The notes under the pieces: model-generated
The model's database searches: none
Told to the model about the DNA's origin: nothing
Seen by the model: the letters and a program-made list of their open reading frames with translations, nothing else
In this document: one piece after another, positions 118-14,156 of the stretch
Layout: each line of letters begins with the position of its first letter
How positions within the stretch are numbered: the stretch's first letter is position 1
Source: a virus
Virus record (IMG/VR): IMGVR_UViG_3300032770_000043
Span: 1-42,688 of that record
Strand: one strand, 5' to 3'
Length of the DNA: 42,688 nt
Translations under genes and position numbers: made by a program

Positions 118-258
118 CCGCGCGGCGTCCCAAAAGTCAGCGTTCTCGGCGGCGTTCGGGTCGCCCATCTTTGCGGCGATTCGCGCGCGAAACGATTCCA
201 GTTCCATGCGCGCGATTAGTGAAGGGAGCGCGTCCCCGTCGCTCGGCTGGGTGCTCAT
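1..258 (-). CDS. Hypothetical helical protein, N-terminal part (gene wraps to 42407)
   Basis: ATG at 258 overlaps the stop of the upstream gene (ATGA). Eighty-six codons run to base 1 and continue in frame at 42571 down to the stop at 42407, giving about 140 residues. The protein starts MSTQPSDGD, is rich in Ala, Glu and Gln, and looks wholly helical, probably coiled coil (for example RAQVEALQQQLAHAHRVRM). No family is recognised. It is the last gene of the minus-strand operon. Its first codons are nearly copied at the 3' end of the gene at 512-913, which suggests cassette rearrangement. Confidence 0.8.
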   Translation of the reverse strand, partial: MSTQPSDGDALPSLIARMELESFRARIAAKMGDPNAAENADFWDAARAQVEALQQQLAHAHRVRMEDGAAHIEEMIQHKAQLEALA

Positions 259-515
259 AGCTCCTCTGTGGGTACAAAGGATTTCCAGACAACGGGGCCG
301 CTCGTTGCTTCGTTTTTGTCGTTCCACCGTCGGATGATCGCTTTGTCTGACTCCAGGGGCGCACCGAGGAGAATCTCGCGCGCACGATCGATCCACCACG
401 CCTGATGCTCATCGCCCGCCAACTCCCATTCCGGATGCCATGACTCGTCACTGTTGACACGCGCACATTCGTAGGCCCATGCGGCGGCCCGATCAGCGTA
501 AATCTCGTAACTCAT
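255..515 (-). CDS. Hypothetical acidic small protein (86 aa)
   Basis: ATG at 515 overlaps the upstream stop (TCA at 512-514 on the plus strand), and its own stop overlaps the next start. The sequence is Trp-rich and acidic (MSYEIYADRAAAWAYECARV near the start) with no membrane segment or metal motif. No function is recognised. Tight overlaps on both sides are the main support that it is translated. Confidence 0.75.
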   Translation of the reverse strand: MSYEIYADRAAAWAYECARVNSDESWHPEWELAGDEHQAWWIDRAREILLGAPLESDKAIIRRWNDKNEATSGPVVWKSFVPTEEL

Positions 516-913
516 GTTCTGCTCCCGTCGCTCGGCTGGGTCATGGCTGGTCCTCCCGCAGCGTATACTCGGCAGATCAAGTTGCGGGCAACGCTGTCGT
601 AGAACTTCGGGTAGTACGTCTCCGTAAAGTGAGGATCGTATGGCTCTGGCGGATTCTTGCCGCTCGGGTTATGGCGACCAGCAAGTTCGCCAAAATACTC
701 GTAGAGTCCTTGGCGCACGCTCTCAACCACAGCATCGCTCAGTTCAGCAGCCGGTGCGGGCGCCTCGTCGGCGGCGAGCGCGGCCCTCAGTCGCTCGTTG
801 GCTTCGAGCAAATCCTCAATGGCGGCGCGCAGCATCGGAAACTTCGTCTCGTGATGCGCCTCGATGTTGTCCACGATTCGGAGCACGTCTAGGGGCTGGC
901 GGGTCGCGCTCAT
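512..913 (-). CDS. Hypothetical protein (133 aa), possibly with a fused remnant at its end
   Basis: ATG at 913 starts inside a 25-base boundary repeat shared exactly with the start of the gene at 1083, so both proteins begin MSATRQP. The body is helical (HHETKFPMLRAAIEDLLEAN) followed by a Tyr/Pro-rich stretch (YDPHFTETYYPKFYD). The last ten residues, MTQPSDGSRT, read like the start of another gene of this operon (compare MSTQPSDGD at 258). A neighbouring gene may have been lost by recombination, fusing its first codons here. Function unknown. Confidence 0.7.
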   Translation of the reverse strand: MSATRQPLDVLRIVDNIEAHHETKFPMLRAAIEDLLEANERLRAALAADEAPAPAAELSDAVVESVRQGLYEYFGELAGRHNPSGKNPPEPYDPHFTETYYPKFYDSVARNLICRVYAAGGPAMTQPSDGSRT

Positions 914-1083
914 GGCTGCCCGCGCTTTCGTCCTGCGGAATTGATCGTGCATCCCACCACGCCGTACTGCCATTGACAGTTTTTCGTCGGGCAATAGTGT
1001 CCAATGGAATCCCGCTTGAGCGTCGCACCACAATACTTGCACCGATTTGGGCACTCACACCGGGGCTGGCGGGTCGCGCTCAT
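910..1083 (-). CDS. Small zinc-ribbon protein (57 aa)
   Basis: ATG at 1083. The sequence carries CxxxCxxC (CPNRCKYCG) and a second CxxxxC set (HYCPTKNCQW), a likely zinc ribbon. The gene is bounded at both ends by the same 25-base sequence (892-916 and 1062-1086), so it sits like an excisable cassette. Overlaps are ATGA at the downstream end. No specific function is known; DNA or RNA binding is possible. Confidence 0.75.
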   Translation of the reverse strand: MSATRQPRCECPNRCKYCGATLKRDSIGHYCPTKNCQWQYGVVGCTINSAGRKRGQP

Positions 1084-1331
1084 GGCCGCCATCCCCAAAC
1101 GAAGCTCAAGACTTCAGCGACCGCGCGCGCAGTTTCAGCCGTGCGGTAGCGGAACACTGGTTTATCGTGACCTTTGAACGCGCAGCCGCATCGTCTCATT
1201 ACCAACCACCAGCCATCGCGCTGCTCAAAGTAAAACTCTCCATCCTGCACGTCATGATTGTGTGGCGTTTCTACGCCGCATGCAGGGCACATATAGGTGC
1301 CGTTTAGCTGCTCTTGTGGCGTCGCACTCAT
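1080..1331 (-). CDS. Small zinc-ribbon protein (83 aa)
   Basis: ATG at 1331. It contains CPACG near the start and MRRCGC further on, a plausible four-Cys metal site, with aromatic residues between (DGEFYFEQRDGWWLV). The stop overlaps the start of the next gene. It begins MSATPQEQ, resembling the MSATRQP starts of its two downstream neighbours. Function unknown. Confidence 0.7.
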   Translation of the reverse strand: MSATPQEQLNGTYMCPACGVETPHNHDVQDGEFYFEQRDGWWLVMRRCGCAFKGHDKPVFRYRTAETARAVAEVLSFVWGWRP

Positions 1332-1483
1332 GGGCGATCCTCGCGGTCGGCGTTGCACTCCAATTCGGTGTGGAAATCGTAGCAGTCCGCACAGAAGGGC
1401 CGCCTGCAACAGGTCCGCACCACGCCTACGATGTCGGCACCGCATCGTGCGCACTTTGCCTCCGGCGGGGGCTGGCGGGTCAT
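1328..1483 (-). CDS. Cys-rich small zinc-binding protein (51 aa)
   Basis: ATG at 1483 overlaps the upstream stop. The sequence has CARCG, CC and CADC in 30 residues, as in a B-box or ribbon-type zinc fold. It begins MTRQPPP, another variant of the boundary sequence used at 913 and 1083. Function is unknown. Confidence 0.7.
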   Translation of the reverse strand: MTRQPPPEAKCARCGADIVGVVRTCCRRPFCADCYDFHTELECNADREDRP

Positions 1484-1797
1484 GGCTGCGCCCCGCGCGA
1501 GCGCATGAGCGCGTGAATCAGTTCCGTCCGAAACCCAGCTTGATCTACTTGCTGGCCGCCGTTCGTGAATCGCACGGTGTTCCACACGAGCCTCAGTATC
1601 TCATCGTCGCTGACTCCTCGGACGCACTTTTCGATGTACCCGACGCTATCGAACCGCGACGGCACGCGATATTGACGGCTCTCGCGACGCGGCGTCATGC
1701 AAATGAACGCGACGCCAGGCTCCGTTACTGGCGCTCCGCACTCCGGACATTCGATGCGCGACGCTTCTATCGGCTCGCTCGCTTTTTTGTCGCTCAT
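1480..1797 (-). CDS. Hypothetical protein with CPECG motif (105 aa)
   Basis: ATG at 1797 overlaps the upstream stop. A CPECGAPV ribbon half-site near residue 17 and later single cysteines suggest metal binding. The C-terminal half is helical (SDDEILRLVWNTVRF). No family recognised. Confidence 0.7.
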   Translation of the reverse strand: MSDKKASEPIEASRIECPECGAPVTEPGVAFICMTPRRESRQYRVPSRFDSVGYIEKCVRGVSDDEILRLVWNTVRFTNGGQQVDQAGFRTELIHALMRSRGAQP

Positions 1798-1985
1798 TGT
1801 GGGGGCTGCTCCGTTCTCGCGCCCGGCTCGCAGAAGCAACAATCGCATCCCGGTACGACTTTGCCGCGGTCGTAGTGCGCTAGGCCGATCAGCACGCGGC
1901 GGTGCGTTTGAATCGCCCGTTTCGCGGACGCCATAACGCGCTCCACGTCCTCCGGGCTATGACACTGGCTGAAATCGAGCTTCAT
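1794..1985 (-). CDS. Small Cys-cluster protein (63 aa)
   Basis: ATG at 1985. An N-terminal helix (SPEDVERVMASAKRAIQTH) is followed by CDCCFCEPG, a tight cysteine cluster. The end, ARTEQPPQ, is nearly the same as the end of the upstream gene (ARTEQPE); the two are encoded by an identical 18-base sequence at 1804-1821 and 1989-2006. The gene thus lies between direct repeats and could have been inserted as a cassette. Function unknown. Confidence 0.7.
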   Translation of the reverse strand: MKLDFSQCHSPEDVERVMASAKRAIQTHRRVLIGLAHYDRGKVVPGCDCCFCEPGARTEQPPQ

Positions 1986-2179
1986 TCCGGCTGCTCCGTT
2001 CTCGCGTCGGGGGCCCGCGCGTCGGGTCGTTCAATCTCCCAAGTCGCTTCGTGGATCAGCGATACGAGATCTTCACGACACAAGTCGATCAGCTCGGCAT
2101 CGGCCATTCCCGCAATTTCCTCGTCGGTTGCCCATAACTCGGTAAGCGGGCATCGCAAGACCACGACCGTGCGGCTCAC
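1982..2179 (-). CDS. Hypothetical small acidic protein (65 aa)
   Basis: GTG at 2179 overlaps the stop of the methyltransferase gene (GTGA), which supports this start. The protein is acidic and helical (DEEIAGMADAELIDLCREDL) and ends ARTEQPE. Function unknown; translation is probably coupled to the methyltransferase. Confidence 0.7.
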   Translation of the reverse strand: MSRTVVVLRCPLTELWATDEEIAGMADAELIDLCREDLVSLIHEATWEIERPDARAPDARTEQPE

Positions 2180-2862
2180 GCGGACGGCTCTCCGGTGGCG
2201 GCGTCGGGGGCCGGGGACGCGGGGGCGAGATCCAAAACGCCTTGCTCTAGGCGACTGGCGGCAATCTCACAGTACCGTTCCTCGATCTCGATACCGATGG
2301 CGCGACGGCCTAGGTCCTTCGCCGCTACGAGCGTCGTCCCGGTGCCTGCGAACGGGTCGAGGATCATGTCGCCTACATCGCTCCACCATTGGACTACCCA
2401 ATCAGCGTGGCGCCGATTACGAGCTGCCGGATGGGGTTGTCGCTTGGAGGAGTCGCTCGTCACACGGCACTCTCCGGGGAGAACGCGGCGTCCTTCTTGA
2501 CTCTTGGGCCACGAGCCGAAGGCGTACAACACGTCGCCCGTCACGAGCGCGCGTCCGTTGTAGGACGGCACCGCGCGACTGAGATAGCACGAGCGGAGAA
2601 ACGGCCAGCGAGAATCCACGGCGCCGAGGAAGCGCGGGTCGCTCTGGCAACCGAGCCATATTATCAGGCGTTGTACGGCTGGCGTGACCTGGAGCATTTC
2701 CTCGAAAAGCGCATACGGGTCTTCGCTGCCGATTAGATCGGGATGGGCGTTCGGCCATACGGGGTCCGTGATGAGCACGTCAGCCGTCAGATCCGGCAGC
2801 ACGTCGCGGCAATCCCCGTGATATATCACGATGCCATCGGCCTCATAGTACGGGCGGCTCAC
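2176..2862 (-). CDS. DNA amino-methyltransferase (N6-adenine or N4-cytosine type), DPVW variant
   Basis: GTG at 2862 gives 228 residues; no in-frame ATG lies nearby and the reading frame upstream is the shadow of the neighbouring gene. It would transfer a methyl group from S-adenosylmethionine to an exocyclic amine in DNA. Visible motifs: IYHGDCRDVL at residues 14-23, the catalytic motif IV as DPVW at 33-36 (usually DPPY/F/W), and near the C-terminus DPFAGTGTT, the SAM-binding loop, then IGIEIEERYCEIAASRL. Motif IV preceding motif I is the beta-class order. No nuclease partner lies nearby, so it is probably an orphan enzyme giving protection or regulation. The Val in DPVW is unusual but the surrounding fold motifs are intact. 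Confidence 0.85.
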   Translation of the reverse strand: MSRPYYEADGIVIYHGDCRDVLPDLTADVLITDPVWPNAHPDLIGSEDPYALFEEMLQVTPAVQRLIIWLGCQSDPRFLGAVDSRWPFLRSCYLSRAVPSYNGRALVTGDVLYAFGSWPKSQEGRRVLPGECRVTSDSSKRQPHPAARNRRHADWVVQWWSDVGDMILDPFAGTGTTLVAAKDLGRRAIGIEIEERYCEIAASRLEQGVLDLAPASPAPDAATGEPSA

Positions 2863-2902
2863 GGCTGGGCATCCGCCGGGGGCGCAGCCCCACGGGACTT
2901 GA

Positions 2903-3472
2903 TCACGGATTGGCCTCCCGAAATGCGCGGGCGAATCCGGCCGGCGTGACGCTCCGCAAGGCCTGGCGCTCCGGGGATGGGGGCAGGCGCCACATCTTCG
3001 AGCCTTCCGTCGCAGCGACCGCGGCTTCCGTGGCGATCGGTGCCGCGAACTTGCCCCACAGCAGCGTGCGCTTCGTGTACGGATCGCCGTACTCGTTCGG
3101 CTGAAACGAGAACTGCGGCGGCCCGAGCCAGCGGCGCAGCTTGCCCACCGGATTCTCAAGGGCCCACCACTGCGGCCGACACACGGCCACGAGGCGCAGA
3201 CAGGCGTCCACGATCGACAGGGCGTCGCGCAGCTCAGCCTCGGTGCGCGTCCAGCGTGCCCCGGAGTTCGCGAATACGGTACAGGGCGGCGCGGCGAGTA
3301 TCCCGTGGACTTGGCCCGGGTAGTCGAGTAGCCGCACGTCGGTAGGCAGGTCGATGCGGCGCACATCGTAGCCCACCTCCGCGTAGGGCGCGCTCCATGA
3401 GCCGGAGCCGGCGCACAAGTCGAGAATGACCCGGGCGTGCGGCTCAGCACGGGAACTCACGGGGCCGCTCAC
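2903..3472 (-). CDS. Cytosine-C5 DNA methyltransferase (compact)
   Basis: GTG at 3472 overlaps the upstream stop (GTGA), giving 189 residues. It is predicted to form 5-methylcytosine in DNA. Motif I is DLCAGSGSWS at 18-27. The catalytic motif IV is APPCT with Cys at residue 64. Motif VI is ENP at 106-108, followed by YTKRTLLWG at 132-140 and a C-terminal TPAGFARAF resembling motif X. Bacterial enzymes of this family are usually over 300 residues with a target-recognition domain; here only about 40 residues separate the last motifs, so recognition is probably of a very short site. With the TET-like dioxygenase at 8610-9452 and the glycosyltransferase at 7424-8200 it would start a cytosine hypermodification pathway. 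Confidence 0.87.
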   Translation of the reverse strand: MSGPVSSRAEPHARVILDLCAGSGSWSAPYAEVGYDVRRIDLPTDVRLLDYPGQVHGILAAPPCTVFANSGARWTRTEAELRDALSIVDACLRLVAVCRPQWWALENPVGKLRRWLGPPQFSFQPNEYGDPYTKRTLLWGKFAAPIATEAAVAATEGSKMWRLPPSPERQALRSVTPAGFARAFREANP

Positions 3473-4215
3473 TCGCCTGCCCTGCCTGCCAACTCGGTGT
3501 CGATCTCTTCCACCTTCGTCGCCCATTTTACGGGGTCCGTCTTGACGCACCATTTCCGCAATTCCACCAGCTCGTCGCTCGGCTTGTCCTTGAGCGGCTT
3601 GCCCTTCCACATGGCCACGGCCGGCAACACGGGCTCAGGCTGTTGAATCGCGGCAGGCACGTCCTTGAGGTCCAACGCCGCTACGGCTTTCTGCACCGCG
3701 GCCTTCACGCTGCTCGCCAGCGGGCCCTTCGCGGGCCGCTCGTCGGGGATTTCCTCTGCGGGCGTCACTTCGTAGCCGCTCAGGGCCATAACCCACGAGA
3801 ACGCCAAGCGACACGCCTTGGCGGTGGCTCGAGTGAGGGCCATGGAGCGGCGTGCGTACTTTGCCCGCTTAGCCCATGTCGGCTCGTCAGGGCCGCATTC
3901 CGCTGAGGCCCGACTGACGACCTGCTGGTCTGTGAGGCGGCACAGTTCTACCACGGCGGTATAGGTGCCTTCGTGTTCGGTGCAGGAGACTTCCCGGGGT
4001 GTCACGCCCATCATGGCCGCGAGCGTCGTCCAGCCCTCGCACTTCACGAACTTCTTACCCTGAATATTCGAGTACAGGTTGCGGTCGGCAATCACCTTGG
4101 CGAGGGCCGTCGCCGCTTCCGTGGCCAGCGCCACCAGTTGCGCCGGCCGATCAGCGCGGATCACCCCGAGCTCGACGCTTCGCACTTCGGGAACCAATGC
4201 CATGGCTTCAGTCAC
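3469..4215 (-). CDS. Conserved phage protein, possible recombination/ssDNA-annealing role
   Basis: GTG at 4215 overlaps the upstream stop by 8 bases; an ATG at 4203 is the alternative start. The 248-residue protein has the conserved blocks LYSNIQGKKFVKCEGWTTLA, MGVTPRE and YARRSMALTRATAKACRLAF followed by MALSGYEVTPAEE. I recognise these from a widespread family in phages and environmental bacteria that is mostly annotated as hypothetical. Position among DNA-metabolism genes and the basic YARRSMA-RAT segment suggest a recombination or annealing role, which is inference. The C-terminal third is a low-complexity helical tail. Confidence 0.7.
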   Translation of the reverse strand: MTEAMALVPEVRSVELGVIRADRPAQLVALATEAATALAKVIADRNLYSNIQGKKFVKCEGWTTLAAMMGVTPREVSCTEHEGTYTAVVELCRLTDQQVVSRASAECGPDEPTWAKRAKYARRSMALTRATAKACRLAFSWVMALSGYEVTPAEEIPDERPAKGPLASSVKAAVQKAVAALDLKDVPAAIQQPEPVLPAVAMWKGKPLKDKPSDELVELRKWCVKTDPVKWATKVEEIDTELAGRAGE

Positions 4216-4687
4216 GCTTCAGATCCTCCGCCAGAAGTTTGCCGCAACTATTACACAGCCCATCAAGGTGCGTCCGGACCACCGCCTCGAGCGGGACGCG
4301 GATTTCGGTGCATGGCGCGCCGTCCGGGGGCACGTAGCCGCACCGGGGCTGGAAGCCGCCCACATGCCAAGCGCCGAATGAACGCCCGTGGCCCTTCCAT
4401 GCGGTGAGCAGCACGGGGCGGAACACACTGTGCGCGTTGTCGTCCGAGCCGCGCCCCTCGGTCACTGCTGGCACTGCCAGCATGGGGTCCCGTAGGGCAT
4501 CCCGTGTATGCAGCGCGGATTCAGAAGGCATCACCCCGTCTTTCGTGGTTGGTGCATCACATAGCCATCGGTCATGGTCTATCTCATAGTGGTCGGCGAT
4601 GCTCTCGCCGGGCTCCGGTGGCCGGCGGCAATGCGGGCACCGGGGGCGCAGGGCGTTCAGCGCGGCGACGGAGTTTCGGTAGGTCAT
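4208..4687 (-). CDS. Multi-zinc-site hypothetical protein (159 aa)
   Basis: ATG at 4687 overlaps the upstream stop. Three cysteine pairs are seen: CPHC at residues 17-20, a central CGY with GAPC, and CNSCG near the end, with a HYEIDHDRWLC segment that recalls HNH-like His/Asp spacing but lacks a clear catalytic triad. It could be a zinc-dependent DNA-binding protein. No family is recognised. Confidence 0.7.
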   Translation of the reverse strand: MTYRNSVAALNALRPRCPHCRRPPEPGESIADHYEIDHDRWLCDAPTTKDGVMPSESALHTRDALRDPMLAVPAVTEGRGSDDNAHSVFRPVLLTAWKGHGRSFGAWHVGGFQPRCGYVPPDGAPCTEIRVPLEAVVRTHLDGLCNSCGKLLAEDLKRD

Positions 4688-4857
4688 GGATTCGCCTTGA
4701 GCACGGCCCGCGCGCGGTCCACAATGAGTCCAATATTCATACGCGGCTGGTCCCACCAATTGATTAGGGCTTCCAGCGCGGCGCGGACTTCTTTGTACGA
4801 GACTTGGAGCTGCTCGTAGTCCGCCAGCGCCGCGTGATCGTCGTCTCGTTGGCTCAT
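4684..4857 (-). CDS. Hypothetical helical small protein (57 aa)
   Basis: ATG at 4857 with ATGA overlaps at both ends. Helical throughout (ADYEQLQVSYKEVRAALEAL), no metal site or membrane segment. Function unknown. Confidence 0.65.
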   Translation of the reverse strand: MSQRDDDHAALADYEQLQVSYKEVRAALEALINWWDQPRMNIGLIVDRARAVLKANP

Positions 4858-5327
4858 GGCTTGGCTCCTGACAGATCGAGCGTCGGGTAAAGCGGGTGCT
4901 TCGATTTCATGTGCTGCGCGAGTTGTGCGAACGTGCGATTGCAGCACGGGCACACGCCTGCCGCAACGCGCTTCCTTACCCGCGTGAGATGCCCGCGAAT
5001 GGCGCGCGCGCTGCGCTCCAGTGTTTCCGTCTGTTTCCACGCGGCATCCCGAGAGGCGCGCGTCTGATCGTGCGCGGCGCGTCCGCGCGTCAACTGATCG
5101 CGGAGCATTTCGGCATCCGTCTGCTGCAAATAGAACTGCTCGTGCCCGTTCGGGCAGTAGAAACCCGCGTGCGATTTGCGGAGGTGCGCCATGTGGCCCG
5201 CTTCCAACCCGAACAGCACGCCGCACAGGTAGAGGTGCGCCATGTGGCCCGCTTCCAACCCGAACAGCACGCCGCACAGGTAGCAGCTCACGTGATTCAG
5301 TGTTGCGAAAACGGTCGTGTCGCTCAT
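4854..5327 (-). CDS. C2H2 zinc-finger phage protein with duplicated finger (157 aa)
   Basis: ATG at 5327 overlaps the upstream stop. The N-terminus has a CxxC finger half (CYLCGVLFGLEAGHMAHL) duplicated exactly as a 17-residue unit, then RKSHAGFYCPNGHEQFY. A helical or coiled-coil middle follows (residues about 60-120), and the protein ends with a classic C2H2 finger, CPCCNRTFAQLAQHMKSKH. I recognise the family, without the duplication, as common in phages of environmental bacteria. Nucleic-acid binding is likely; the target is unknown. The duplication corresponds to a perfect 51-base tandem repeat. Confidence 0.8.
   Translation of the reverse strand: MSDTTVFATLNHVSCYLCGVLFGLEAGHMAHLYLCGVLFGLEAGHMAHLRKSHAGFYCPNGHEQFYLQQTDAEMLRDQLTRGRAAHDQTRASRDAAWKQTETLERSARAIRGHLTRVRKRVAAGVCPCCNRTFAQLAQHMKSKHPLYPTLDLSGAKP
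5181..5282. repeat. Perfect tandem repeat, two 51-base units, inside a zinc-finger gene
   Basis: 5181-5231 and 5232-5282 are identical. Each encodes the 17 residues YLCGVLFGLEAGHMAHL, so frame is kept. The absence of any mismatch means the duplication is recent or is an assembly artefact. Confidence 0.95.
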
Positions 5328-5434
5328 GGCTTCCCTCTCTGGGACGCATCGGTCCCGCCACAGAAGGCTTTCCAGACGATCCAGCACGCCACGCTCCACG
5401 CGACGCCGTACACGATCACTGTGTGCAGCGTCAT
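5324..5434 (-). CDS. Single-pass membrane micro-protein (36 aa)
   Basis: ATG at 5434 and stop at 5324 overlap both neighbours by 4 bases. About 20 hydrophobic residues (VIVYGVAWSVACWIVWKAF) form one predicted membrane helix followed by a polar tail. Such micro-proteins in early phage operons often bind host membrane enzymes, but no specific role can be read here. Confidence 0.6.
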   Translation of the reverse strand: MTLHTVIVYGVAWSVACWIVWKAFCGGTDASQRGKP

Positions 5435-5640
5435 GGCTTCGGCGCCACGAATTGTTTGGCGAGCCACTTGGTGGCGCATTTGACAGAGCACAGCGCCGCG
5501 CCCATCGAGCCGGTATTCTCGTTGCGAAGGAAGCGCCAGCCCAGTTTGTACATGTCGGCGCTGCTTGCATCGCGCTTCGGCACGTCGTGCGTCACATGAC
5601 AGACGTCGCACGCGAACCGCGTTATTGTGTGCGCGCTCAT
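5431..5640 (-). CDS. Zinc-ribbon protein (69 aa)
   Basis: ATG at 5640. Two separated cysteine pairs, CDVCH near residue 10 and CSVKC near residue 51, suggest a zinc ribbon around a short beta region. Overlaps both neighbours. Function unknown. Confidence 0.7.
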   Translation of the reverse strand: MSAHTITRFACDVCHVTHDVPKRDASSADMYKLGWRFLRNENTGSMGAALCSVKCATKWLAKQFVAPKP

Positions 5641-5795
5641 CCGACCTTCTCCGTATCCTGGGAGGCCCCGACTGTGGAGCGCAGCAGCCGCTCCAGTGCG
5701 TTGCGTTCGGCGCGCGCCCGCTGGAGTCCCTGATCGGCGCAGCACAGCGCGCACCCAACGAAACTGGCCCCGTAGATCACGAGCAGGGCCGTCAT
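5637..5795 (-). CDS. Small membrane-anchored protein (52 aa)
   Basis: ATG at 5795. The N-terminal hydrophobic segment (LLVIYGASFVGCALCC) is followed by a charged helix (QRARAERNALERLL). One-pass topology is likely. Overlaps of 4 bases on both sides support the call. Function unknown. Confidence 0.6.
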   Translation of the reverse strand: MTALLVIYGASFVGCALCCADQGLQRARAERNALERLLRSTVGASQDTEKVG

Positions 5796-6073
5796 GCGTC
5801 CGCCTGCCGCAGGGCTGCTTCCACCGCATCGGCGGGGAAGTTCTCCGGCGTGTCGGCCGTCTCCCACCAGCCCTGCACTAGGCACAGCGCCGCGTACATG
5901 GCGGGCACGCTGGCCCACAAGGGCTCTTTCTCCAGTTCTTCCCCGATGGCCAAGGCGTAGCGGTCAGTGCTCGACAGCGTTTTCCCGCACAGCCGGGTAT
6001 CCGTGCGCCGCACGGCGCGCAGCAGGGCCTCACGCAGCTCGTGCGGGGCAATGGTCGTCTTGATGGTGGTCAT
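5792..6073 (-). CDS. Hypothetical protein (93 aa)
   Basis: ATG at 6073 overlaps the upstream stop. The sequence is helical with no metal motif (APHELREALLRAVRRTDTRL near the start, ENFPADAVEAALRQADA at the end). No family recognised. Confidence 0.65.
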   Translation of the reverse strand: MTTIKTTIAPHELREALLRAVRRTDTRLCGKTLSSTDRYALAIGEELEKEPLWASVPAMYAALCLVQGWWETADTPENFPADAVEAALRQADA

Positions 6074-6264
6074 CGGCGTAGTCGCTCCGCGTAGGCGAGC
6101 CCGCTATCGAGCCGCTGGAGGATGCGCTCAAGGCGGGACACGTAGGTGGGCACTTCGTCGGGCAGGCCGCCGTCGCGCTCCAAGGCCAAGAGGTCGCGGA
6201 GCGCGGTCCGGAGGTCCGTCCCTTCGTCGTGCGTGAGGTCCAGCGCAAAGCGGCGCCTAGGCAT
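6070..6264 (-). CDS. Hypothetical helical protein (64 aa)
   Basis: ATG at 6264 overlaps the stop of the first operon gene by 8 bases. Protein begins MPRRRFALDLTHDEGTDL and is mostly helical (VPTYVSRLERILQRLDSGL). The acidic and basic patches could form a small DNA- or protein-binding bundle. Function unknown. Confidence 0.65.
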   Translation of the reverse strand: MPRRRFALDLTHDEGTDLRTALRDLLALERDGGLPDEVPTYVSRLERILQRLDSGLAYAERLRR

Positions 6265-6430
6265 GGCGCGCAGCCCTCCGGCCAGCCTTCTCAATCCGCA
6301 ACCGGGCTTTTCGATGTGCCCACGCGGCGGTGAACTTTAGGCCAGCTTTCCGCCAGCGATAGCGGCGCTTGGCTTTGGCATTCGTGAGGCGCGGCTTGCG
6401 AAGTGCTGCGGGGTATTCGGAGCGTCTCAT
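6257..6430 (-). CDS. Very basic small protein, first gene of the minus-strand operon (57 aa)
   Basis: ATG at 6430 is chosen because AAGGG lies 9 bases upstream; an ATG at 6439 would sit directly on that ribosome-binding site. The protein is dominated by Arg, Lys and Ala (KAKRRYRWRKAGL), so nucleic-acid binding is likely. It is the promoter-proximal gene behind the promoter at 6490-6519, with a leader of about 50 bases. No family recognised. Confidence 0.6.
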   Translation of the reverse strand: MRRSEYPAALRKPRLTNAKAKRRYRWRKAGLKFTAAWAHRKARLRIEKAGRRAARHA

Positions 6431-6445
6431 CGGGTCCATCCCTTC

Positions 6446-6458
6446 TGGCCAGTGGCCA
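6446..6458. promoter_or_regulatory. Operator-like palindrome in the leader of the minus-strand operon
   Basis: TGGCCA-g-TGGCCA forms a 13-base palindrome about 25 bases downstream of the expected start of transcription and just before the first ribosome-binding site. It could be an operator or a short mRNA hairpin. Inference from position only. Confidence 0.35.
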
Positions 6459-6489
6459 CTCGGGTCCGGGGTGCTGCGGGAACGCCCCT

Positions 6490-6519
6490 AATATGCACCG
6501 CTCTCCCGAAAAGCGAAAG
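6490..6519 (-). promoter_or_regulatory. Predicted phage promoter (minus strand), CTTTCG-N18-CATATT
   Basis: On the minus strand CTTTCG (6519-6514) and CATATT (6495-6490) are separated by exactly 18 bases, the same geometry as four other sites in the genome. Start of transcription would fall near 6483, about 50 bases ahead of the first gene of the minus operon. Confidence 0.75.
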
Positions 6520-6525
6520 GGGGCC

Positions 6526-6549
6526 AAAGCCCGACTATCCACGGGCTTT
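6526..6549. promoter_or_regulatory. Inverted repeat between the divergent promoters
   Basis: AAAGCCC-N10-GGGCTTT lies centrally between the -35-like boxes of the divergent promoters at 6490-6519 and 6560-6589. A symmetric site here is well placed for a regulator of both transcription units. Its role is inferred. Confidence 0.45.
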
Positions 6550-6559
6550 TCGCGTGCCC

Positions 6560-6589
6560 CTTTCGTAACCTCTCCTTTGCTTGCATGTT
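6560..6589 (+). promoter_or_regulatory. Predicted phage promoter, CTTTCG-N18-CATGTT
   Basis: CTTTCG at 6560-6565 and CATGTT at 6584-6589 with an 18-base spacer. The second box differs from the common CATATT at one base. The ATG of the next gene is 7 bases beyond the box, so the transcript would begin at or next to the start codon (leaderless). Confidence 0.65.
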
Positions 6590-6595
6590 TCCGCC

Positions 6596-6748
6596 ATGAT
6601 TAACGCGCGTTGCGGCGTGTGCGGCAAGCGGATCTTGATCCGCCGCGTGACTGGACGGCCCCCGAAATATTGCTCGCAGGTCTGCCGTCGTGTGGCGGCG
6701 CGGCTCCGGGATGCGGATCGCCGGGGGCTTTCGCGAACTGGTAAGTAG
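6596..6748 (+). CDS. Small zinc-finger protein, probably leaderless (50 aa)
   Basis: ATG at 6596. The protein has CGVCG at residues 6-10 and CSQVC at 26-30 joined by a basic strand (KRILIRRVTGRPPKY), followed by a basic helix (RRVAARLRDADRR). This is a treble-clef or ribbon-type nucleic-acid-binding fold. There is no Shine-Dalgarno sequence; the promoter at 6560-6589 ends 7 bases before the start. It is the first plus-strand gene and could act as an early regulator, which is inference. The third promoter's -35 box (6728-6733) lies inside its 3' end. Confidence 0.75.
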   Translation: MINARCGVCGKRILIRRVTGRPPKYCSQVCRRVAARLRDADRRGLSRTGK

Positions 6749-6757
6749 TTGCATATT
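6728..6757 (+). promoter_or_regulatory. Predicted phage promoter, CTTTCG-N18-CATATT
   Basis: CTTTCG at 6728-6733 and CATATT at 6752-6757, exact 18-base spacer. Transcription would start near 6764 and enter a non-coding leader of about 240 bases before the GTG at 7008. It probably drives the DNA-modification genes. Confidence 0.75.
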
Positions 6758-6763
6758 GTTCCT

Positions 6764-7007
6764 GCGGGCGGACCGATCGCTGCGGACCGACCCACCTGCA
6801 CGACATGACAGCCCTGACACCGGAGAGTCACTTATCCCCGGGTGTTTTGGTTCCCCACGTCTCGCCTCGTCAGGGCGGCGGGCTGGGACAGCGAGCCAAG
6901 CACCCGGGGATTTTCCGTTCAATCCCCACCACGTGGCGCTGCACCAAAACTGATACCCGAGACGTCCCACAGCCCCGGCTCGCGTCGGGGACACCGGAGG
7001 TGTGCGC
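6764..7007 (+). promoter_or_regulatory. Long structured 5' leader with competing hairpins
   Basis: I see no convincing gene in this stretch. ATCCCCGGGTG (6834-6844) pairs perfectly with CACCCGGGGAT (6901-6911). The helix can extend inward through TTTGG/CCAAG (6846-6850 with 6896-6900) and CTCGC/GCGAG (6861-6865 with 6891-6895). The GGGGATT arm (6906-6912) can instead pair with AATCCCC at 6921-6927, so the two helices exclude each other. TTTT follows the first helix. A further CCCCG/CGGGG hairpin precedes the GGAGGT ribosome-binding site at 6996-7001. This could be an RNA switch, an attenuator or a stabilising leader; the ligand, if any, is unknown. Confidence 0.5.
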
Positions 7008-7427
7008 GTGTCTGACGATCTCCGTCGGTTGGAGCGAAGCGACAACCGCAAGAATCCGAGCGACAGCGAGGATAAGCGAGCGCAGCGAGCTTTAGGTTTA
7101 GACTTGAGGCCTCTGGCTCGTGAAGCACCGAAACAGCAGCATCGGAACCAGCTCAGTCCTTTAGGGCGGGCGTGGCGCGATGTATACCCGGATGCGGAGC
7201 CGCCATGGGGCCTGCTCGCGCGGTATTGCGCCCCACTGCTGAAGGCGCATCCCGTCGAGCGGGTGGTGATGGAGTTACGCGGGTACCTGAAGGCGACGCC
7301 CCGGGATTTCCTCAACCTCAGTAAGTTCTCCTATACGTTCGGGACCTGGACGCCGAGGGTCACGCCTTCCGGGCGCCGATATCAGAGCGCCGATGAGGCT
7401 GACCGGGCGGCAGGGATCCTCCCGTGA
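7008..7427 (+). CDS. Hypothetical protein, possible replication-linked helical protein (139 aa)
   Basis: GTG at 7008 is chosen because GGAGGT ends 6 bases upstream; the GTG at 7002 would leave no spacing. The N-terminal half is charged and probably disordered (RSDNRKNPSDSEDKRAQRA). The C-terminal half is helical (WGLLARYCAPLLKAHPVERV, then LRGYLKATPRDFLNLSKFSY and FGTW). That pattern recalls the C-terminal domain of some phage replication organisers, but the match is weak. Its stop overlaps the GTG of the glycosyltransferase gene. Confidence 0.65.
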   Translation: MSDDLRRLERSDNRKNPSDSEDKRAQRALGLDLRPLAREAPKQQHRNQLSPLGRAWRDVYPDAEPPWGLLARYCAPLLKAHPVERVVMELRGYLKATPRDFLNLSKFSYTFGTWTPRVTPSGRRYQSADEADRAAGILP

Positions 7428-8200
7428 CAGCGTTGACCATCTGTATTCCCACTCGTGGCCGGAGCGAGCGGCAACTCACGTGGGCACAGCTGCCGTGGGA
7501 GTGGAAGCAGCGCACGTGGCTCGTAGTGGATGCAGACGAAGCGGCGGCTCACGCCCGATTTGGCCATTTGCTGGTCTACGCCGGTGGGCCCGGCATCGCG
7601 CGAAAGCGCCAGTGGATTCTAGAACATGCCCCCAGCCCGCATTGTCTCATGCTGGACGACGATTTAGATTTCGCTCAGCGTACCGACGGTAAGTTACATA
7701 AGGCCACGGCGACGGAGATCGACGCGGGACTGGAACGCCTCGAGGCGTGGCTCGAAGATGGGTGGGTGCAGGTGGGACTGGGGCCGCGGGCTGGCAATCA
7801 CACCGTCCCGGAACCGTGGGCCGAAGTGACTCGGCAATATGCAGCCCTCGGCTACGATGTGCCAGCCGTGCTGGCGAGCGGTGCGACGTTCGCCCCGGAG
7901 ACCGATCCGATGGAAGATTTCGACATGACCCTACAGCTTCTGGAGCGCGGATACCCCAACCGCGTCAGCTACGACTTCGTCATCGGCTCGGCCGGCGCGA
8001 ATGCCCGTGGCGGCTGCTCGGCGTACCGGACGGCCGAGCGGATGCACCGCGCGGCCACGACGTTGGCGGCGCGGCATCCAGGGGTCGTGACCCTCGTGAC
8101 CAAACGGAGTACTACGTGGGCCAAGCTGCCCGAACGTACAGACGTGGAAGTCGCCTGGAAGCGGGCATACCGCCAGCGGCATCAGGGCAGTCTCTTGTGA
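7424..8200 (+). CDS. TET-associated-type glycosyltransferase (GT-A fold)
   Basis: GTG at 7424 overlaps the upstream stop (GTGA), giving 258 residues. It is predicted to move a sugar from a nucleotide sugar onto an acceptor, here most likely 5-hydroxymethylcytosine in phage DNA. The N-terminus LTICIPTRGR begins the Rossmann-like half; MLDDDLDF (76-83) carries the DxD metal-binding motif; MEDFDMTLQLLERGY further on matches the conserved ED of GT-A enzymes. Phage TET/JBP genes are known to sit beside such glycosyltransferases, and here the TET-like gene is one gene downstream. It could instead modify another hydroxylated base or protein. Confidence 0.85.
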   Translation: MTALTICIPTRGRSERQLTWAQLPWEWKQRTWLVVDADEAAAHARFGHLLVYAGGPGIARKRQWILEHAPSPHCLMLDDDLDFAQRTDGKLHKATATEIDAGLERLEAWLEDGWVQVGLGPRAGNHTVPEPWAEVTRQYAALGYDVPAVLASGATFAPETDPMEDFDMTLQLLERGYPNRVSYDFVIGSAGANARGGCSAYRTAERMHRAATTLAARHPGVVTLVTKRSTTWAKLPERTDVEVAWKRAYRQRHQGSLL

Positions 8201-8667
8201 GCGCACCCGTAATGGATACTCCCGAGGGCTGGGCGCAATGTCACGAATGTGGCCGGCGGGGGGTGACGGATTGTCCGGGACCCTTGGCGTGCCCGGCATT
8301 GGTGCACCCACCGGACCTGTTGGAGCAAATCGAGAGATGCGACGATGGCGTGCCCGCACCGGAGTTCGCGGGCCCCGATCAGGTAAATCTGTTCAACCTG
8401 GACAGTTTCACCCACGAATCGAACGCGGAGCGCATCCGCCGAGAGCTGGAAGAGGCGGGCCTCACGCCAGAGGCGCGCCTCAAAGTGTATGAGACCACCA
8501 CGATCCGCCAGATCGTGCTCCTGTTTCAGGCCCCAGAATATGCCCAAGTGCTCGACGACCTCGCCGAGCTCATGTCCGAAAGTGCCACCGAGAGCCATAC
8601 GGAGGCCGTATGCTGGCTGCTGCAGCAATGGAAATCCCGGATCGGCGCCTTCAGCGCCAACGCATAA
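8197..8667 (+). CDS. Zinc-ribbon protein between glycosyltransferase and dioxygenase (156 aa)
   Basis: GTG at 8197 overlaps the glycosyltransferase stop (GTGA); ATG at 8212 is an alternative. The N-terminus has a four-Cys cluster, CHECGRRGVTDCPGPLACP. The rest is helical (ESNAERIRRELEEAGLTPEA; TTIRQIVLLFQAPEYAQVL). Its 3' end overlaps the start of the dioxygenase gene by about 58 bases, so the three genes are almost certainly co-translated. It may be an accessory DNA-binding factor of the modification system, but I recognise no family. Confidence 0.7.
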   Translation: MSAPVMDTPEGWAQCHECGRRGVTDCPGPLACPALVHPPDLLEQIERCDDGVPAPEFAGPDQVNLFNLDSFTHESNAERIRRELEEAGLTPEARLKVYETTTIRQIVLLFQAPEYAQVLDDLAELMSESATESHTEAVCWLLQQWKSRIGAFSANA

Positions 8668-9452
8668 AGCCGGGGGATTACCGGCTCCGCACGGCCCAAA
8701 CAGCGGATTGTGCCGAACTGATCGACCAACCGTGCCGGATTCTCGATGGCGGGCAAGTGCGGATCGTCTATCTCCACTTAGCAGGCGTGGAAGATTGGCG
8801 TCCGCTCGTGACACAGTTGCGCGCCTTGCGCTACGACACCACGCAACGCACCAGCGGGATGACGAGCACGAGCCGCGTGTTCGGGTACGAGCCCCGGAAG
8901 GTGATGCGGAAAGATTACTGTTCGATGACGAGCCTGATTCAGGACGCGCCAGCGACGCTCCTGGGTCTGCAGGGCGCGGCTGAGCGGATCGAGCACTACT
9001 ATGAGCAGACGAATCCCCTGCTCTACGCGCGGCACGACGAAGTGGCGCGCAACAAGGTGCGGGCGGAGTGGCGGCTGAGTCGGCTGTTCACGAGCGGAAT
9101 CGTCAACTTCAACAACCCGCTGCCGTACCACTACGACGCTGGCAACTTCGCGGACGTGTGGAGTGCGATGCTGGTGTTCAAGGGCGCAGGAGTGGCTGGC
9201 GGCGAGCTCGCCGTACCCGAGTACGGGGCGCGCTTCGCGCTGCCCGATCACAGCCTGTTCTGTTTTGACGGTCAAGGGTTGCTGCACGGCGTGACCCCGA
9301 TCATCAAAACACAACCCGATTCGTATCGACTGAGCGTGGTGTTCTATTCGCTGAGGGCGATGTGGCAGTGTCTGCCGCCGAGCGCCGAGCTTCGGCGTAT
9401 CCGCACGGTCAAGACGGCGCGCGAGCGGCGCCGCGGAGGACACCTTGAGTAA
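8610..9452 (+). CDS. TET/JBP-family 2-oxoglutarate/Fe(II) dioxygenase
   Basis: ATG at 8610 has GGAGG 4 bases upstream; ATG at 8628 is the alternative. The 280-residue protein shows the family signature: SRVFGYEPRK at 88-97, DYCSM at 102-106, then the double-stranded beta-helix with HYD (His174, Asp176) as iron ligands, the distal His at 226 (LLHGVTP) and Arg240 in YRLSVVFYSL as the 2-oxoglutarate contact. The length is like single-domain phage TETs and far shorter than animal TET proteins. Phage TETs oxidise 5-methylcytosine to 5-hydroxymethylcytosine in DNA, preferring a Gp5mC context. The gene's partners here are the C5 methyltransferase at 2903-3472 and the glycosyltransferase at 7424-8200. 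Confidence 0.9.
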   Translation: MLAAAAMEIPDRRLQRQRIKPGDYRLRTAQTADCAELIDQPCRILDGGQVRIVYLHLAGVEDWRPLVTQLRALRYDTTQRTSGMTSTSRVFGYEPRKVMRKDYCSMTSLIQDAPATLLGLQGAAERIEHYYEQTNPLLYARHDEVARNKVRAEWRLSRLFTSGIVNFNNPLPYHYDAGNFADVWSAMLVFKGAGVAGGELAVPEYGARFALPDHSLFCFDGQGLLHGVTPIIKTQPDSYRLSVVFYSLRAMWQCLPPSAELRRIRTVKTARERRRGGHLE

Positions 9453-9732
9453 ACAAACGCAGCTGTTCGCGATCGAGCAGTTCACGGACTGGGCCCAGGT
9501 GTACGCGGAAGCCAGCGAGACGGATCGTCGGATCGTGGATTTCGTGGCAGCGCACCCGGGCTGTGTAAGGGGCGATATTCGGGCTGGCACGGGTCTCACG
9601 GGCGACACGCTGAATTTCCGGTTGTGGGAGTTGGCGGGCCGTGGAACGGGCGAGCATCAGGCCGACGGATTGCTGATCGCCGAACGCCGAGGGGATGGCC
9701 CATACCGCTACTACGCGCGGGAACGGCCGTGA
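9445..9732 (+). CDS. Winged-helix DNA-binding protein (95 aa)
   Basis: TTG at 9445 follows GGAGGA by 5 bases and overlaps the dioxygenase stop by 8 bases. The middle (DRRIVDFVAAHPGCVRGDIR ... LTGDTLNFRLWELAGRG) reads as the helix-turn-helix of a winged-helix domain. The end, LIAERRGDGPYRYYAR, is the wing strand pair. Likely a small regulator, or a DNA-recognition helper for the modification enzymes; this is inference. Confidence 0.7.
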   Translation: MSKQTQLFAIEQFTDWAQVYAEASETDRRIVDFVAAHPGCVRGDIRAGTGLTGDTLNFRLWELAGRGTGEHQADGLLIAERRGDGPYRYYARERP

Positions 9733-10013
9733 GCGGCCCCCGCAGCCGGAACCCGTACATCAACCGCTCCGTGGAAACCCTGCGGCCGCGCGGCTGGGTG
9801 CACCCGTACCTGAAAGCCCTACGCCATCTGGAAGCCACGCTAGCGGCCGAACCTGAAGCGACCCGTGGCCCGAAGCGGGAATGGATCTTGGCGGGGATCG
9901 AGCGGGAGCATGGGTACAAGTTTCGGAAGATGATTGAGTTTGCCCTGTGCGAGCGGGCGCAGCAGAACCTTGAGACCAAAGGGCGGCCGACCGTTGACAA
10001 GCGCCTTCGGTAG
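9729..10013 (+). CDS. Hypothetical basic protein (94 aa)
   Basis: GTG at 9729 overlaps the preceding stop (GTGA). The protein is basic and helical (HPYLKALRHLEATLAAEPEA; REWILAGIEREHGYKFRKMI). It may bind DNA. No family recognised. Confidence 0.65.
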   Translation: MSGPRSRNPYINRSVETLRPRGWVHPYLKALRHLEATLAAEPEATRGPKREWILAGIEREHGYKFRKMIEFALCERAQQNLETKGRPTVDKRLR

Positions 10014-10029
10014 TGGCCCAATCACTGAG

Positions 10030-10416
10030 ATGGGCGACGTGGAGCGCCGACTAGGCATCATGCCGGTCGAAGAACTGCTAGCCGAGCGCCATGCCCTCGT
10101 CAAACGCGTGGCGCGGTTGCGCGCGGCCTACGGTGCCTGGGGCACGTGGGATGCCCAGCGCAAGATCGTGCTGGCGTCGATCGCGCAGAAGCTCCGGGCG
10201 CAGGCCCTCGTCAACGGCGAGCGGCTGACGGAAGCGGCCATCGAGGATGCGGCCCATGCGGACGATGCGTATGCCGCGTTCGTGCAGCGGTGCACCGAGG
10301 AGCGGGCGCAGATGGCCGTGCTGGAGGACCAGATCGAGGGGCTGACGGCCCGGTTGAATCGAGGACAGGTGATTGCTCGCTACTTGGCGATGGAAGTGAG
10401 CCTCACGCCGCGCTAG
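10030..10416 (+). CDS. Hypothetical coiled-coil protein (128 aa)
   Basis: ATG at 10030 lies 16 bases after the previous stop. Nearly all helical with heptad-like spacing (VEELLAERHALVKRVARLRA; EERAQMAVLEDQIEGLTARL). No family recognised. The next phage promoter follows directly after its stop. Confidence 0.65.
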   Translation: MGDVERRLGIMPVEELLAERHALVKRVARLRAAYGAWGTWDAQRKIVLASIAQKLRAQALVNGERLTEAAIEDAAHADDAYAAFVQRCTEERAQMAVLEDQIEGLTARLNRGQVIARYLAMEVSLTPR

Positions 10417-10429
10417 CGCACTGCGGGGG

Positions 10430-10459
10430 CTTTCGGGAAGCGCGGTTGCGCCGCATATT
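10430..10459 (+). promoter_or_regulatory. Predicted phage promoter, CTTTCG-N18-CATATT
   Basis: CTTTCG at 10430-10435 and CATATT at 10454-10459 with an exact 18-base spacer. It stands in the 52-base gap between two genes. Transcription would start near 10466, a few bases before the GTG at 10469. It probably begins the packaging/head transcription unit. Confidence 0.75.
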
Positions 10460-10468
10460 GGAGCCCTT

Positions 10469-10771
10469 GTGAAGCCCCTGCCAGCCGCGCCCGGCCGGAC
10501 TCCCGGGGAGCGCTCGCGCACGGTCGCCGTGCAGCGGGCCGCGCGGCATCTCCGCAAGCTCGCCCACGCCCAGCTCGACGCGCACCTTGACGTCATCATG
10601 CCCGAACTGCTGGCGGACGTGAGCGTGGGTATGGGATTCACGGTCGGGATTCGGACGCTGCCCCCGGAGAACCCGGAAGCGCTGGACCCAAACGCGGAAG
10701 CGATCCTCGTGCAGCGGACGGGCGTGCTGGATGAGCACGGCACCGAAGTGCTCAGGTTTCCGAGCCCATGA
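10469..10771 (+). CDS. Hypothetical protein at the head of the packaging operon (100 aa)
   Basis: GTG at 10469 is about 3 bases after the predicted transcription start, so the mRNA may be nearly leaderless; no Shine-Dalgarno with proper spacing is seen. The N-terminus is basic (GRTPGERSRTVAVQRAARHL), followed by a helical segment and a beta-like tail. Its stop overlaps the next ATG. Function unknown. Confidence 0.6.
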   Translation: MKPLPAAPGRTPGERSRTVAVQRAARHLRKLAHAQLDAHLDVIMPELLADVSVGMGFTVGIRTLPPENPEALDPNAEAILVQRTGVLDEHGTEVLRFPSP

Positions 10772-11154
10772 GCGCGGGAAATGGTAGCAAGGGCACGTCC
10801 CATGCCAAAGAGGCGCTTGCGGTTGTGGAAATAATGGGCGAACCAGGACGGCGCTCAACTGCTTACAAAGCATGGCTTTCGCGCCTGCTGTCTGAGAAAA
10901 CCCATCAAGCTGCATTCCGCCGCGCCATCACCAAGGACAAACACCCGCACTTCATGGCTGCCACGAAGCACGCCGCCGCGTATGCGGAAGGCCTGCCTGT
11001 GCAGCCCACGGTGGATCTCACCCCGAAAGAACCCGCGCACTTGGCCGCCCAGCAGCTCGCGGAAGCCCTGCCGCGGCTCGTGGCCCTGCTCGGCGGTGGG
11101 GACCGCGTGAGGGTGCTGCAGGCGCTTGAGGTGGACGGGAGTGTGGTGGAATGA
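10768..11154 (+). CDS. Candidate small terminase subunit (128 aa)
   Basis: ATG at 10768 overlaps the preceding stop. The sequence HQAAFRRAITKDKHPHFMAA ... KHAAAYAEGLPVQ resembles the helical domain of small-terminase-like proteins that end in a Gly-x-Pro turn. The C-terminal LAAQQLAEALPRLVALLGGG would be the oligomerisation helix. Two genes downstream lie the nuclease and large terminase, where a small terminase would be expected. The family assignment rests mostly on position and helix pattern. Confidence 0.5.
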   Translation: MSAGNGSKGTSHAKEALAVVEIMGEPGRRSTAYKAWLSRLLSEKTHQAAFRRAITKDKHPHFMAATKHAAAYAEGLPVQPTVDLTPKEPAHLAAQQLAEALPRLVALLGGGDRVRVLQALEVDGSVVE

Positions 11155-11297
11155 GCCATCGGACCCTCGCAGCATTGGTCGCGATCGCCCGCCGGCGGGA
11201 GTGGTGGACGAAATGGTCCCGCGCGCGCACCGCGGCCTACCTCGCCCGAGGCGACCGGAAGCTACAGCGGCGGCTCTACCGGGCCCTGGCTGGGTGA
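11151..11297 (+). CDS. Very basic micro-protein (48 aa)
   Basis: ATG at 11151 overlaps the preceding stop, and the stop at 11297 overlaps the GTG of the nuclease gene. Reads MSHRTLAALVAIARRREWW, then arginine-rich helix. Nucleic-acid binding is plausible. Support is the pair of 4-base overlaps. Confidence 0.55.
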   Translation: MSHRTLAALVAIARRREWWTKWSRARTAAYLARGDRKLQRRLYRALAG

Positions 11298-11641
11298 GCC
11301 CGAAGACCTACGATTTCTCGCGCGAGCCCGATATCCAGCGGGCGGTGGTCAACATCTACCGCGCCTTCGGCTGCACCGTGCTGCCGTTCTCGGACTACGG
11401 CACGGGCCCCAAGCGCACGCCACCCGGCTGGCCGGACCTCATCGTCTGTTGTCCACAAAAGCGCCGGCTGTGGGCGCATGAAGTGAAAACCGCCTCGGGC
11501 GTGCAATCGACGGCGCAGCAAGATGTGGAAACCCTGCTCGCGGTGTGCGGGGTGGAGTACGTGCTCGGCGGAGTGCATGAGGCGCAGGCGCAGCTCGCGC
11601 ATCTTGATCTGCTGGCGGGCGCCACGTCCGGGTGTCCGTGA
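11294..11641 (+). CDS. VRR-NUC nuclease (115 aa)
   Basis: GTG at 11294 overlaps the micro-protein stop. The core PD-(D/E)xK-type motifs are clear: an N-terminal Glu helix (REPDIQRAVVNIYRAFG), GWPDLIV with the catalytic Asp, then HEVKTASG with Glu and Lys, and the conserved Gln in TAQQD. The size fits stand-alone VRR-NUC proteins of phages, which act as Holliday-junction or flap nucleases. Lying directly before the large terminase, it may clear branches from replicating DNA before packaging. Confidence 0.85.
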   Translation: MSPKTYDFSREPDIQRAVVNIYRAFGCTVLPFSDYGTGPKRTPPGWPDLIVCCPQKRRLWAHEVKTASGVQSTAQQDVETLLAVCGVEYVLGGVHEAQAQLAHLDLLAGATSGCP

Positions 11642-13387: not shown

Positions 13388-13548
13388 TCCACTGGCTGCT
13401 ACGGCACACCCTCTGCCGCTGGTTCGGCCATGTGCCATCGGTGTTTCAGGTCGGCTTCGTGCGATGTGCGCGCTGTGCCCAAATCGCCCCGTGGCACTGG
13501 GCGCTGGGGGCCGACGGCCAGCGGCTCGAGATCGACTGGCCCGCCTGA
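13384..13548 (+). CDS. Small Cys/His protein (54 aa)
   Basis: GTG at 13384 overlaps the preceding stop. CRWFGH and CARCAQ provide Cys and His residues for one possible zinc site, with Trp-rich flanks. It ends at the ATG of the phosphatase gene. Function unknown. Confidence 0.55.
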   Translation: MIHWLLRHTLCRWFGHVPSVFQVGFVRCARCAQIAPWHWALGADGQRLEIDWPA

Positions 13549-14156
13549 TGGCCCTCTACGTCATGCGCCACGCCCCCACAGGGCTGAACAAGGAAACCGC
13601 AGGCCCCGAGCGGATTCGCGGCTGGGGCCCGGCCGGGCTCGGCCCGGAAGGCCAGCAGGTGGCGAAGGATGCGGCCGCGAGCCTGCAGGTGCACAAACCT
13701 AGTGTGGTGTTCACGAGCGACTTGCCGCGGGCGAAGCAGACGGCCGAAATCATGGCGAAGCAGTTGGGCGGCGTGCCCGTGATTCCCGCGCGCGAGCTCC
13801 GGACGTGGAATGTCGGGAACTTGACGGGCCAGCTCGTCTCGAAAGCAAAGCCGATGCTGGACGAGCTGCAGAACCACAAGCTCACGGACAAAGCCCCGGG
13901 CGGCGAGTCGTACATGGACTTCTACCGGCGCTGGGGCAAGGTCGTGCAGCAGCTCCAGCACGCGGCCGAGGGCGAAGATGTGCTCGTCGTGGTCCACGGG
14001 CGGCAGGTGTATTCGCTGCCATTCGTGCTGGCGGGGAAGCCGCCGCGTGGCATCCCGACGCACGGCGCGCCGGACCCGGGCGATATCCTGCGGGTGGATG
14101 GGGAGAAGCTGCGGTACGCGCACCAAGCGGGCGCGGCTGCGGCGGCGACAGCATGA
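13548..14156 (+). CDS. Histidine phosphatase (phosphoglycerate-mutase-like)
   Basis: ATG at 13548 shares one base with the preceding stop (TGATG); 202 residues. The signature is MRHAPTG with Arg7 and the phosphate-accepting His8, then the conserved Arg61 (FTSDLPRAKQTA), GGESYMDFYRRW (119-130) and the second catalytic His150 in VLVVVHGRQ. All catalytic residues are present, so it should be active. The family dephosphorylates sugars, nucleotides or proteins. It lies between terminase and portal, which is not a usual place; it could serve nucleotide or nucleotide-sugar metabolism for DNA modification. The substrate is not readable from sequence. Confidence 0.88.
   Translation: MALYVMRHAPTGLNKETAGPERIRGWGPAGLGPEGQQVAKDAAASLQVHKPSVVFTSDLPRAKQTAEIMAKQLGGVPVIPARELRTWNVGNLTGQLVSKAKPMLDELQNHKLTDKAPGGESYMDFYRRWGKVVQQLQHAAEGEDVLVVVHGRQVYSLPFVLAGKPPRGIPTHGAPDPGDILRVDGEKLRYAHQAGAAAAATA

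Follow-up and report, generated by a model that had tools for sequence, protein, structure and literature searches.

Metazoan TET and kinetoplastid JBP have been proposed to descend from phage TETs, which Burke et al. (2021) reportedly found to be active on 5-methylcytosine (5mC). In the base J pathway of kinetoplastids, the substrate is thymine and JBP is followed by a glucosyltransferase. Pathways of thymine hypermodification are known to involve enzymes of the ADDT (PF18724) and P-loop nucleotide kinase (PF18751) families. Phage clusters joining a TET to a C5 methyltransferase and a TET-associated glycosyltransferase (TAGT) are reportedly described by Burke et al. 2021 (PNAS 118:e2026742118), a study listed among the references of PMC11347163 and PMC12730594. 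T-even TAGTs put a second sugar on an already glucosylated base, the acceptor being glucosylated 5hmC made before replication and the added sugar a second glucose (PMC13216743).

We analyzed the whole of a viral IMG/VR record (IMGVR_UViG_3300032770_000043; 42,688 bases), hereafter the window. A leftward early arm on the minus strand (~250-6300) diverges near 6.3-7.0 kb from a rightward arm, where a small gene cassette is followed by the terminase, portal and head genes and then by more structural genes. The cassette consists of a GT-A type TAGT of 258 aa (7424-8200, plus strand), a small partner gene of 156 codons with a GTG start (8197-8667, plus strand) and a TET/JBP 2OG-Fe(II) dioxygenase of 280 aa (8610-9452, plus strand). 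Taking sequence and structural models together, we consider it highly probable that this is a post-replicative DNA base hypermodification cassette, whichever base it acts on. TET would hydroxylate pyrimidines of the phage DNA itself at the C5-methyl group, TAGT would then join a sugar to the new hydroxyl, and the glycosylated DNA would be shielded from host nucleases; the partner, a DNA-binding and probably ribbon-helix-helix remnant of a ParB-like protein, would probably hold TET on the DNA or aim it. The TET-TAGT cassette type is already known, and what is new in the window is the cut-down ParB-type partner together with a C5 methyltransferase that is not co-inherited.

According to the preliminary description, both arms start under a copy of the same promoter motif. 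This was not confirmed: the lone sigma-70-like site in positions 1-11500 (1.7 expected; only sites of this type were sought) lies upstream of neither arm, and the window contains no repeat spanning the starts of both. Three further features were observed along the genome: a 51-bp perfect tandem duplication at 5181-5282, inside an early-arm ORF; a gene between those for terminase and portal (13464-14156, plus strand) whose RHAPT motif gives it, on a reading of its sequence alone, a resemblance to histidine phosphatases (phosphoglycerate mutase-like); and a gene among the structural ones (21365-22102, plus strand) that resembles glycosyltransferases by its FFDADT motif and has no Pfam or PHROG match.

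The TAGT product carries the LDDDLDF and MEDFD motifs of the GT-A acidic type, by which it had already been recognized as a glycosyltransferase, and lies well above the cut-off of Pfam TAGT PF20691 (E 2.1e-16, 60.9 bits against 27.5), with a match to phrog_842 at E 1e-37. It is a TET-associated glycosyltransferase, predicted to transfer a sugar to hydroxymethylpyrimidine DNA. Since T-even TAGTs modify a glucosylated base, direct action on the hydroxymethyl group is deduced here from the gene pairing. To survey this pairing we used 91 non-redundant TET loci (TETs less than 90% identical) drawn from IMG/VR, three bacterial-genome contigs and four actinophages; a TAGT lies near TET in 39 of them.

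The dioxygenase contains all residues noted in the preliminary description, namely the F91-G-Y-E-P-R96 block, the HxD motif at H174/D176, the distal His at H226 and the 2OG-binding Arg at R240. Two alignments, one of 20 homologues and one of 54, show no substitution at H174, D176, H226 or R240. It exceeds the cut-off of Pfam Tet_JBP PF12851 (E 3.4e-10, 39.8 bits against 34.9) and matches no other family at E<=1. Structure prediction, proposed earlier as a check, returned a confident AF2 model with a TET-like fold (mean pLDDT 94.9, pTM 0.91), whose best 26 Foldseek matches in the PDB all belong to the TET family (CMD1, CcTet, NgTet1, TET2), with TM-scores by query of ~0.5-0.6; in a profile search of solved structures the meaningful matches were CMD1, TET2 and NgTet. 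On these grounds ORF 8610-9452 is a TET/JBP dioxygenase, and oxidation of a 5-methylpyrimidine in DNA is predicted. From comparison with the homologous locus L109, ATG 8628 is more likely to be its start than 8610. The name of the matching family phrog_6059, 'queuine tRNA-ribosyltransferase', was treated as wrong because Pfam, the PDB profile search and the fold all give TET. The same label occurs in phage annotations, such as that of Mycobacterium phage Acadian gene 2 (L059:813-1691), and hides many phage TETs. Scanning bacterial genomes with TET gave three loci, one in an Ignavibacteria MAG and two on Siphonobacter contigs (L236, L237) that are possibly prophages; with relatives at these three loci alone, the scan assigns no host to the window.

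The glycosyltransferase and TET genes had been described as overlapping. They do not overlap directly, but the partner gene between them, which had been missed, overlaps both: from the GTG at 8197 it shares 4 nt with the end of TAGT, stop included, and it terminates inside TET, at 8667. The product has a Cys-rich N-terminus and a C-terminal strand-helix-helix module. The identity of this module became clear from the survey, where a ParB-like gene is found on the same strand no more than 1.5 kb upstream of TET in 85 of the 91 loci, the six exceptions including contig edges and the window's own sister cassette, in which the ParB core is missing. These proteins combine a ParB_N-like core (Pfam E ~1e-4 to 1e-5, just below cut-off) with a C-terminal module of ~60 residues. 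An HMM built from them with the window and its sister left out matches the partner at E 5.7e-15, over profile positions 135-206 of 219 alone. The window therefore has the upstream position but only the C-terminal module, as does the sister cassette (L109/L037), and the partner is, judged by sequence, the C-terminal module of a ParB-like protein whose core is gone. Its AF2 model has a mean pLDDT of 72, reaching ~94-98 over residues 111-150 and poor outside the C-terminal module. The fold of this module is probably ribbon-helix-helix; as the Foldseek matches, nearly all to TCP DNA-binding domains, are not significant (E 1.3), we regard this as likely rather than demonstrated. The partner is probably the DNA-binding companion of TET, and the near-constant presence of a ParB-like gene before TET points to an unstudied cofactor. 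At three loci (L186:7715-9969, L113:3519-7309, L118:5243-7778) ParB-like genes sit both by a long C5 methyltransferase gene and close to TET, giving the impression that every modifying enzyme has a ParB-like companion of its own.

The sister cassette is carried by a 46-kb IMG/VR contig (3300005549_000004; G037), where TAGT, a C-terminal-only partner and TET overlap in the same order as in the window. Identity to the window proteins is 56% for TAGT, 43% over 84 aa for the partner and 59% for TET. A fourth shared protein, also 56% identical, is winged-helix (MarR-like; phrog_1687, E 5e-7); its gene overlaps the TET stop in the window (9445-9732, plus strand) and lies 5' of TAGT in the sister, and it is possibly a regulator travelling with the cassette. 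None of the other window proteins tested matched the sister at E<=1e-5, and no C5 methyltransferase was detected in this otherwise largely unrelated phage. With these four genes and no other tested one shared between the two genomes, the cassette moves as a unit. Together with the Pfam assignments, the structural matches and the 39 of 91 loci, this twin gives good support to the earlier proposal that TET and TAGT form a DNA hypermodification pair.

Which base they modify is less clear. We hold the prospects of 5mC, supplied by the phage's short methyltransferase or by the host, to be evenly balanced; thymine, which could lead to a base-J-like product, comes behind it as a serious contender, and a substrate that is both of these or something else is improbable. 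Hydroxylation very probably takes place on the DNA, since no thymidylate synthase-like gene (PF00303) occurs in 45 TET records, the window included, and pre-replicative hydroxymethylation by such an enzyme was rejected on the same evidence. The dinucleotide odds of the window (GC 1.12, CG 1.21) have no bearing on the substrate.

The reading we rank first, though short of an even likelihood, is the complete pathway of the preliminary description, in which the short phage C5 methyltransferase makes 5mC, TET converts it to 5hmC and TAGT glycosylates the product. The methyltransferase-like gene with PPC and ENP motifs is indeed present (2903-3472, minus strand). Its product matches phrog_757 strongly (E 2.6e-42), and Cys64 of motif IV (PPC) and E106-N107-P108 of motif VI are invariant in 14 relatives, so the catalytic Cys and ENP have been kept. 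Among the three proteins for which profile searches had been suggested, it is the only one to fall below its Pfam cut-off (PF00145, E 0.11, 12.4 bits against 22), which its relative L099 just reaches (22.6 bits). A target-recognition domain is not evident in this short protein, and a solved-structure search with its profile returned nothing informative. Directly downstream lies an amino-methyltransferase gene (2176-2925, minus strand; PF01555 N6_N4_Mtase, E 2.4e-18), and together the two resemble orphan methyltransferases of the anti-restriction kind.

The complete pathway is also favored by the 5mC activity reported for phage TETs (Burke et al. 2021), and by three loci (L113, L118, L186) that cluster a C5 methyltransferase with TET and whose TETs have the same active-site residues as those without one. 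With the window, these are the only four of the 91 loci to have a C5 methyltransferase within the flanks covered. The enzymes of the three loci are of the long PF00145 type, each beside a ParB-like gene and with no TAGT, whereas that of the window has neither the long form nor such a neighbor. Co-inheritance argues against the pathway in both directions. Bearing in mind that virus contigs may be fragments, no C5 methyltransferase (PF00145 or phrog_757) was found in any of 14 other TET+TAGT records of at least 34 kb (G016, G033, G037, G038, G039, G040, G041, G042, G046, G050, G059, G068, G076 and G077; the TAGT match of G016 is weak), and Pfam and PHROGs scans of the 46 ORFs of the twin, G037, revealed no DNA methyltransferase. 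Conversely, TET was absent from all 18 records with relatives of the window methyltransferase, a search without a positive control of its own, the same profile having detected TET elsewhere, in 12 of 13 records. Hidden C5 methyltransferases were sought in the relatives with PF00145, phrog_757 and three custom HMMs, with matches in L113, L118, L182/L186 and G043 alone, and in G043 the enzyme is encoded tens of kb from TET. The lack of co-inheritance in either direction makes the window methyltransferase look like an independent acquisition; it may supply 5mC to the cassette. As such an enzyme is missing from nearly every relative that carries this cassette, the earlier claim that it feeds TET found no support and is unproven, nor does co-inheritance support glycosylated 5hmC as the product.

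Somewhat less probable, yet still a credible alternative, is that TET acts on thymine like kinetoplastid JBP and TAGT glycosylates 5-hydroxymethyluracil to a base-J-like product, the C5 methyltransferase being an unrelated orphan anti-restriction enzyme. This would account for the other TET+TAGT records that have no C5 methyltransferase, and it draws on the genes for the second step. Over the 91 loci these are TAGT (39), an FkbM-type methyltransferase (23), a P-loop kinase (13), ADDT (10) and a GT-B-like enzyme (9), and they swap repeatedly over the TET tree. ADDT and kinase HMMs have no match in the window. Among the closest neighbors of its TET in the tree, several are of the ADDT/kinase type. 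The ADDT and kinase neighbors, together with the missing C5 methyltransferases, make thymine a serious candidate. The active site gives mixed signals: of Asn1387 and His1904, both cytosine contacts of TET2, the former is matched by Asn179, which speaks against thymine, and the latter position is occupied by Leu248, a Leu nearly invariant in the family, which speaks for it. Against thymine stand also the reported activity of phage TETs on 5mC (Burke et al. 2021) and locus L118, where ADDT and kinase are combined with a C5 methyltransferase and may thus serve cytosine as well. A broader and more tentative proposal, which we regard as rather unlikely in its entirety, is that TET-TAGT phages make base-J-like DNA from thymine, that TET is directed by a ribbon-helix-helix partner derived from ParB which serves nearly all phage TETs as a cofactor, and that the window cassette is a stripped form keeping the DNA-binding module of this partner alone.

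With considerably lower probability, TET and TAGT would convert host-made 5mC on phage DNA, for example against modification-dependent nucleases, and need no phage methyltransferase. This would explain the relatives devoid of phage C5 methyltransferases with the substrate unchanged, but it would depend on a C5 methyltransferase of the host. Finally, we reject as extremely improbable that the dioxygenase belongs to another 2OG family (prolyl hydroxylase, AlkB-like) instead of hydroxylating methylpyrimidines in DNA, an outcome that the preliminary description had named as refuting it. No support for this was found, and TET comes first in Pfam, PDB profile search and Foldseek; that FTO and the ALKBH/AlkB relatives rank next is to be expected of members of the same superfamily.

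Should a C5 methyltransferase be dispensable for most TET-TAGT phages, their substrate would be thymine, or else 5mC of some other origin. The repeated exchange of the second-step enzyme along the TET tree (TAGT, FkbM-type methyltransferase, GT-B, or ADDT with kinase) predicts various DNA bases that have yet to be described. An FkbM-type methyltransferase (PF05050) lies directly downstream of TET at L151:1491-2195 and at 22 other non-redundant loci, 21 of the 23 having no other detected decorating enzyme, which predicts a methylated hydroxymethylpyrimidine in DNA. The jumbo-sized virus record G043 (327,295 bases; locus L116) encodes TET and a C5 methyltransferase as well as ADDT, a kinase and ParB-like proteins; TET/JBP has been stated to be absent from the jumbo phages studied in PMC7824862.

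Compared with known systems, the window resembles the TET clusters reported by Burke et al. 2021 in pairing TET with TAGT and in having a C5 methyltransferase-like gene in the same genome. It departs from them in that this gene, a short one of the phrog_757 type, lies ~5 kb away on the other strand and is not co-inherited, and in that the TET partner is devoid of the ParB core. Cluster B mycobacteriophages (Acadian, Nigel), Microbacterium phage Terij and Rhodococcus phage Tonitrus have a ParB-like gene and then TET as genes 1-2, with TETs 38-43% identical to that of the window over the aligned part. The actinophage pair has a full-length ParB-like protein and an HRD motif where the window has the C-terminal part and HYD; its neighbors include P-loop kinases, and in Tonitrus also an ADDT-type gene, whereas a TAGT-family gene is found in Acadian alone, where the portions of the genome that were read have no C5 methyltransferase annotated. 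The beta-glucosyl-HMC-alpha-glucosyltransferase of T6 (PMC13216743) belongs to the same Pfam family (PF20691) and PHROG as the window TAGT, but our scans of the window detected neither a first glucosyltransferase nor a thymidylate synthase-like hydroxymethylase. The kinetoplastid base J pathway, although its organisms and architecture are unrelated to those of the window, follows the same logic as the cassette, hydroxylation and then a sugar.
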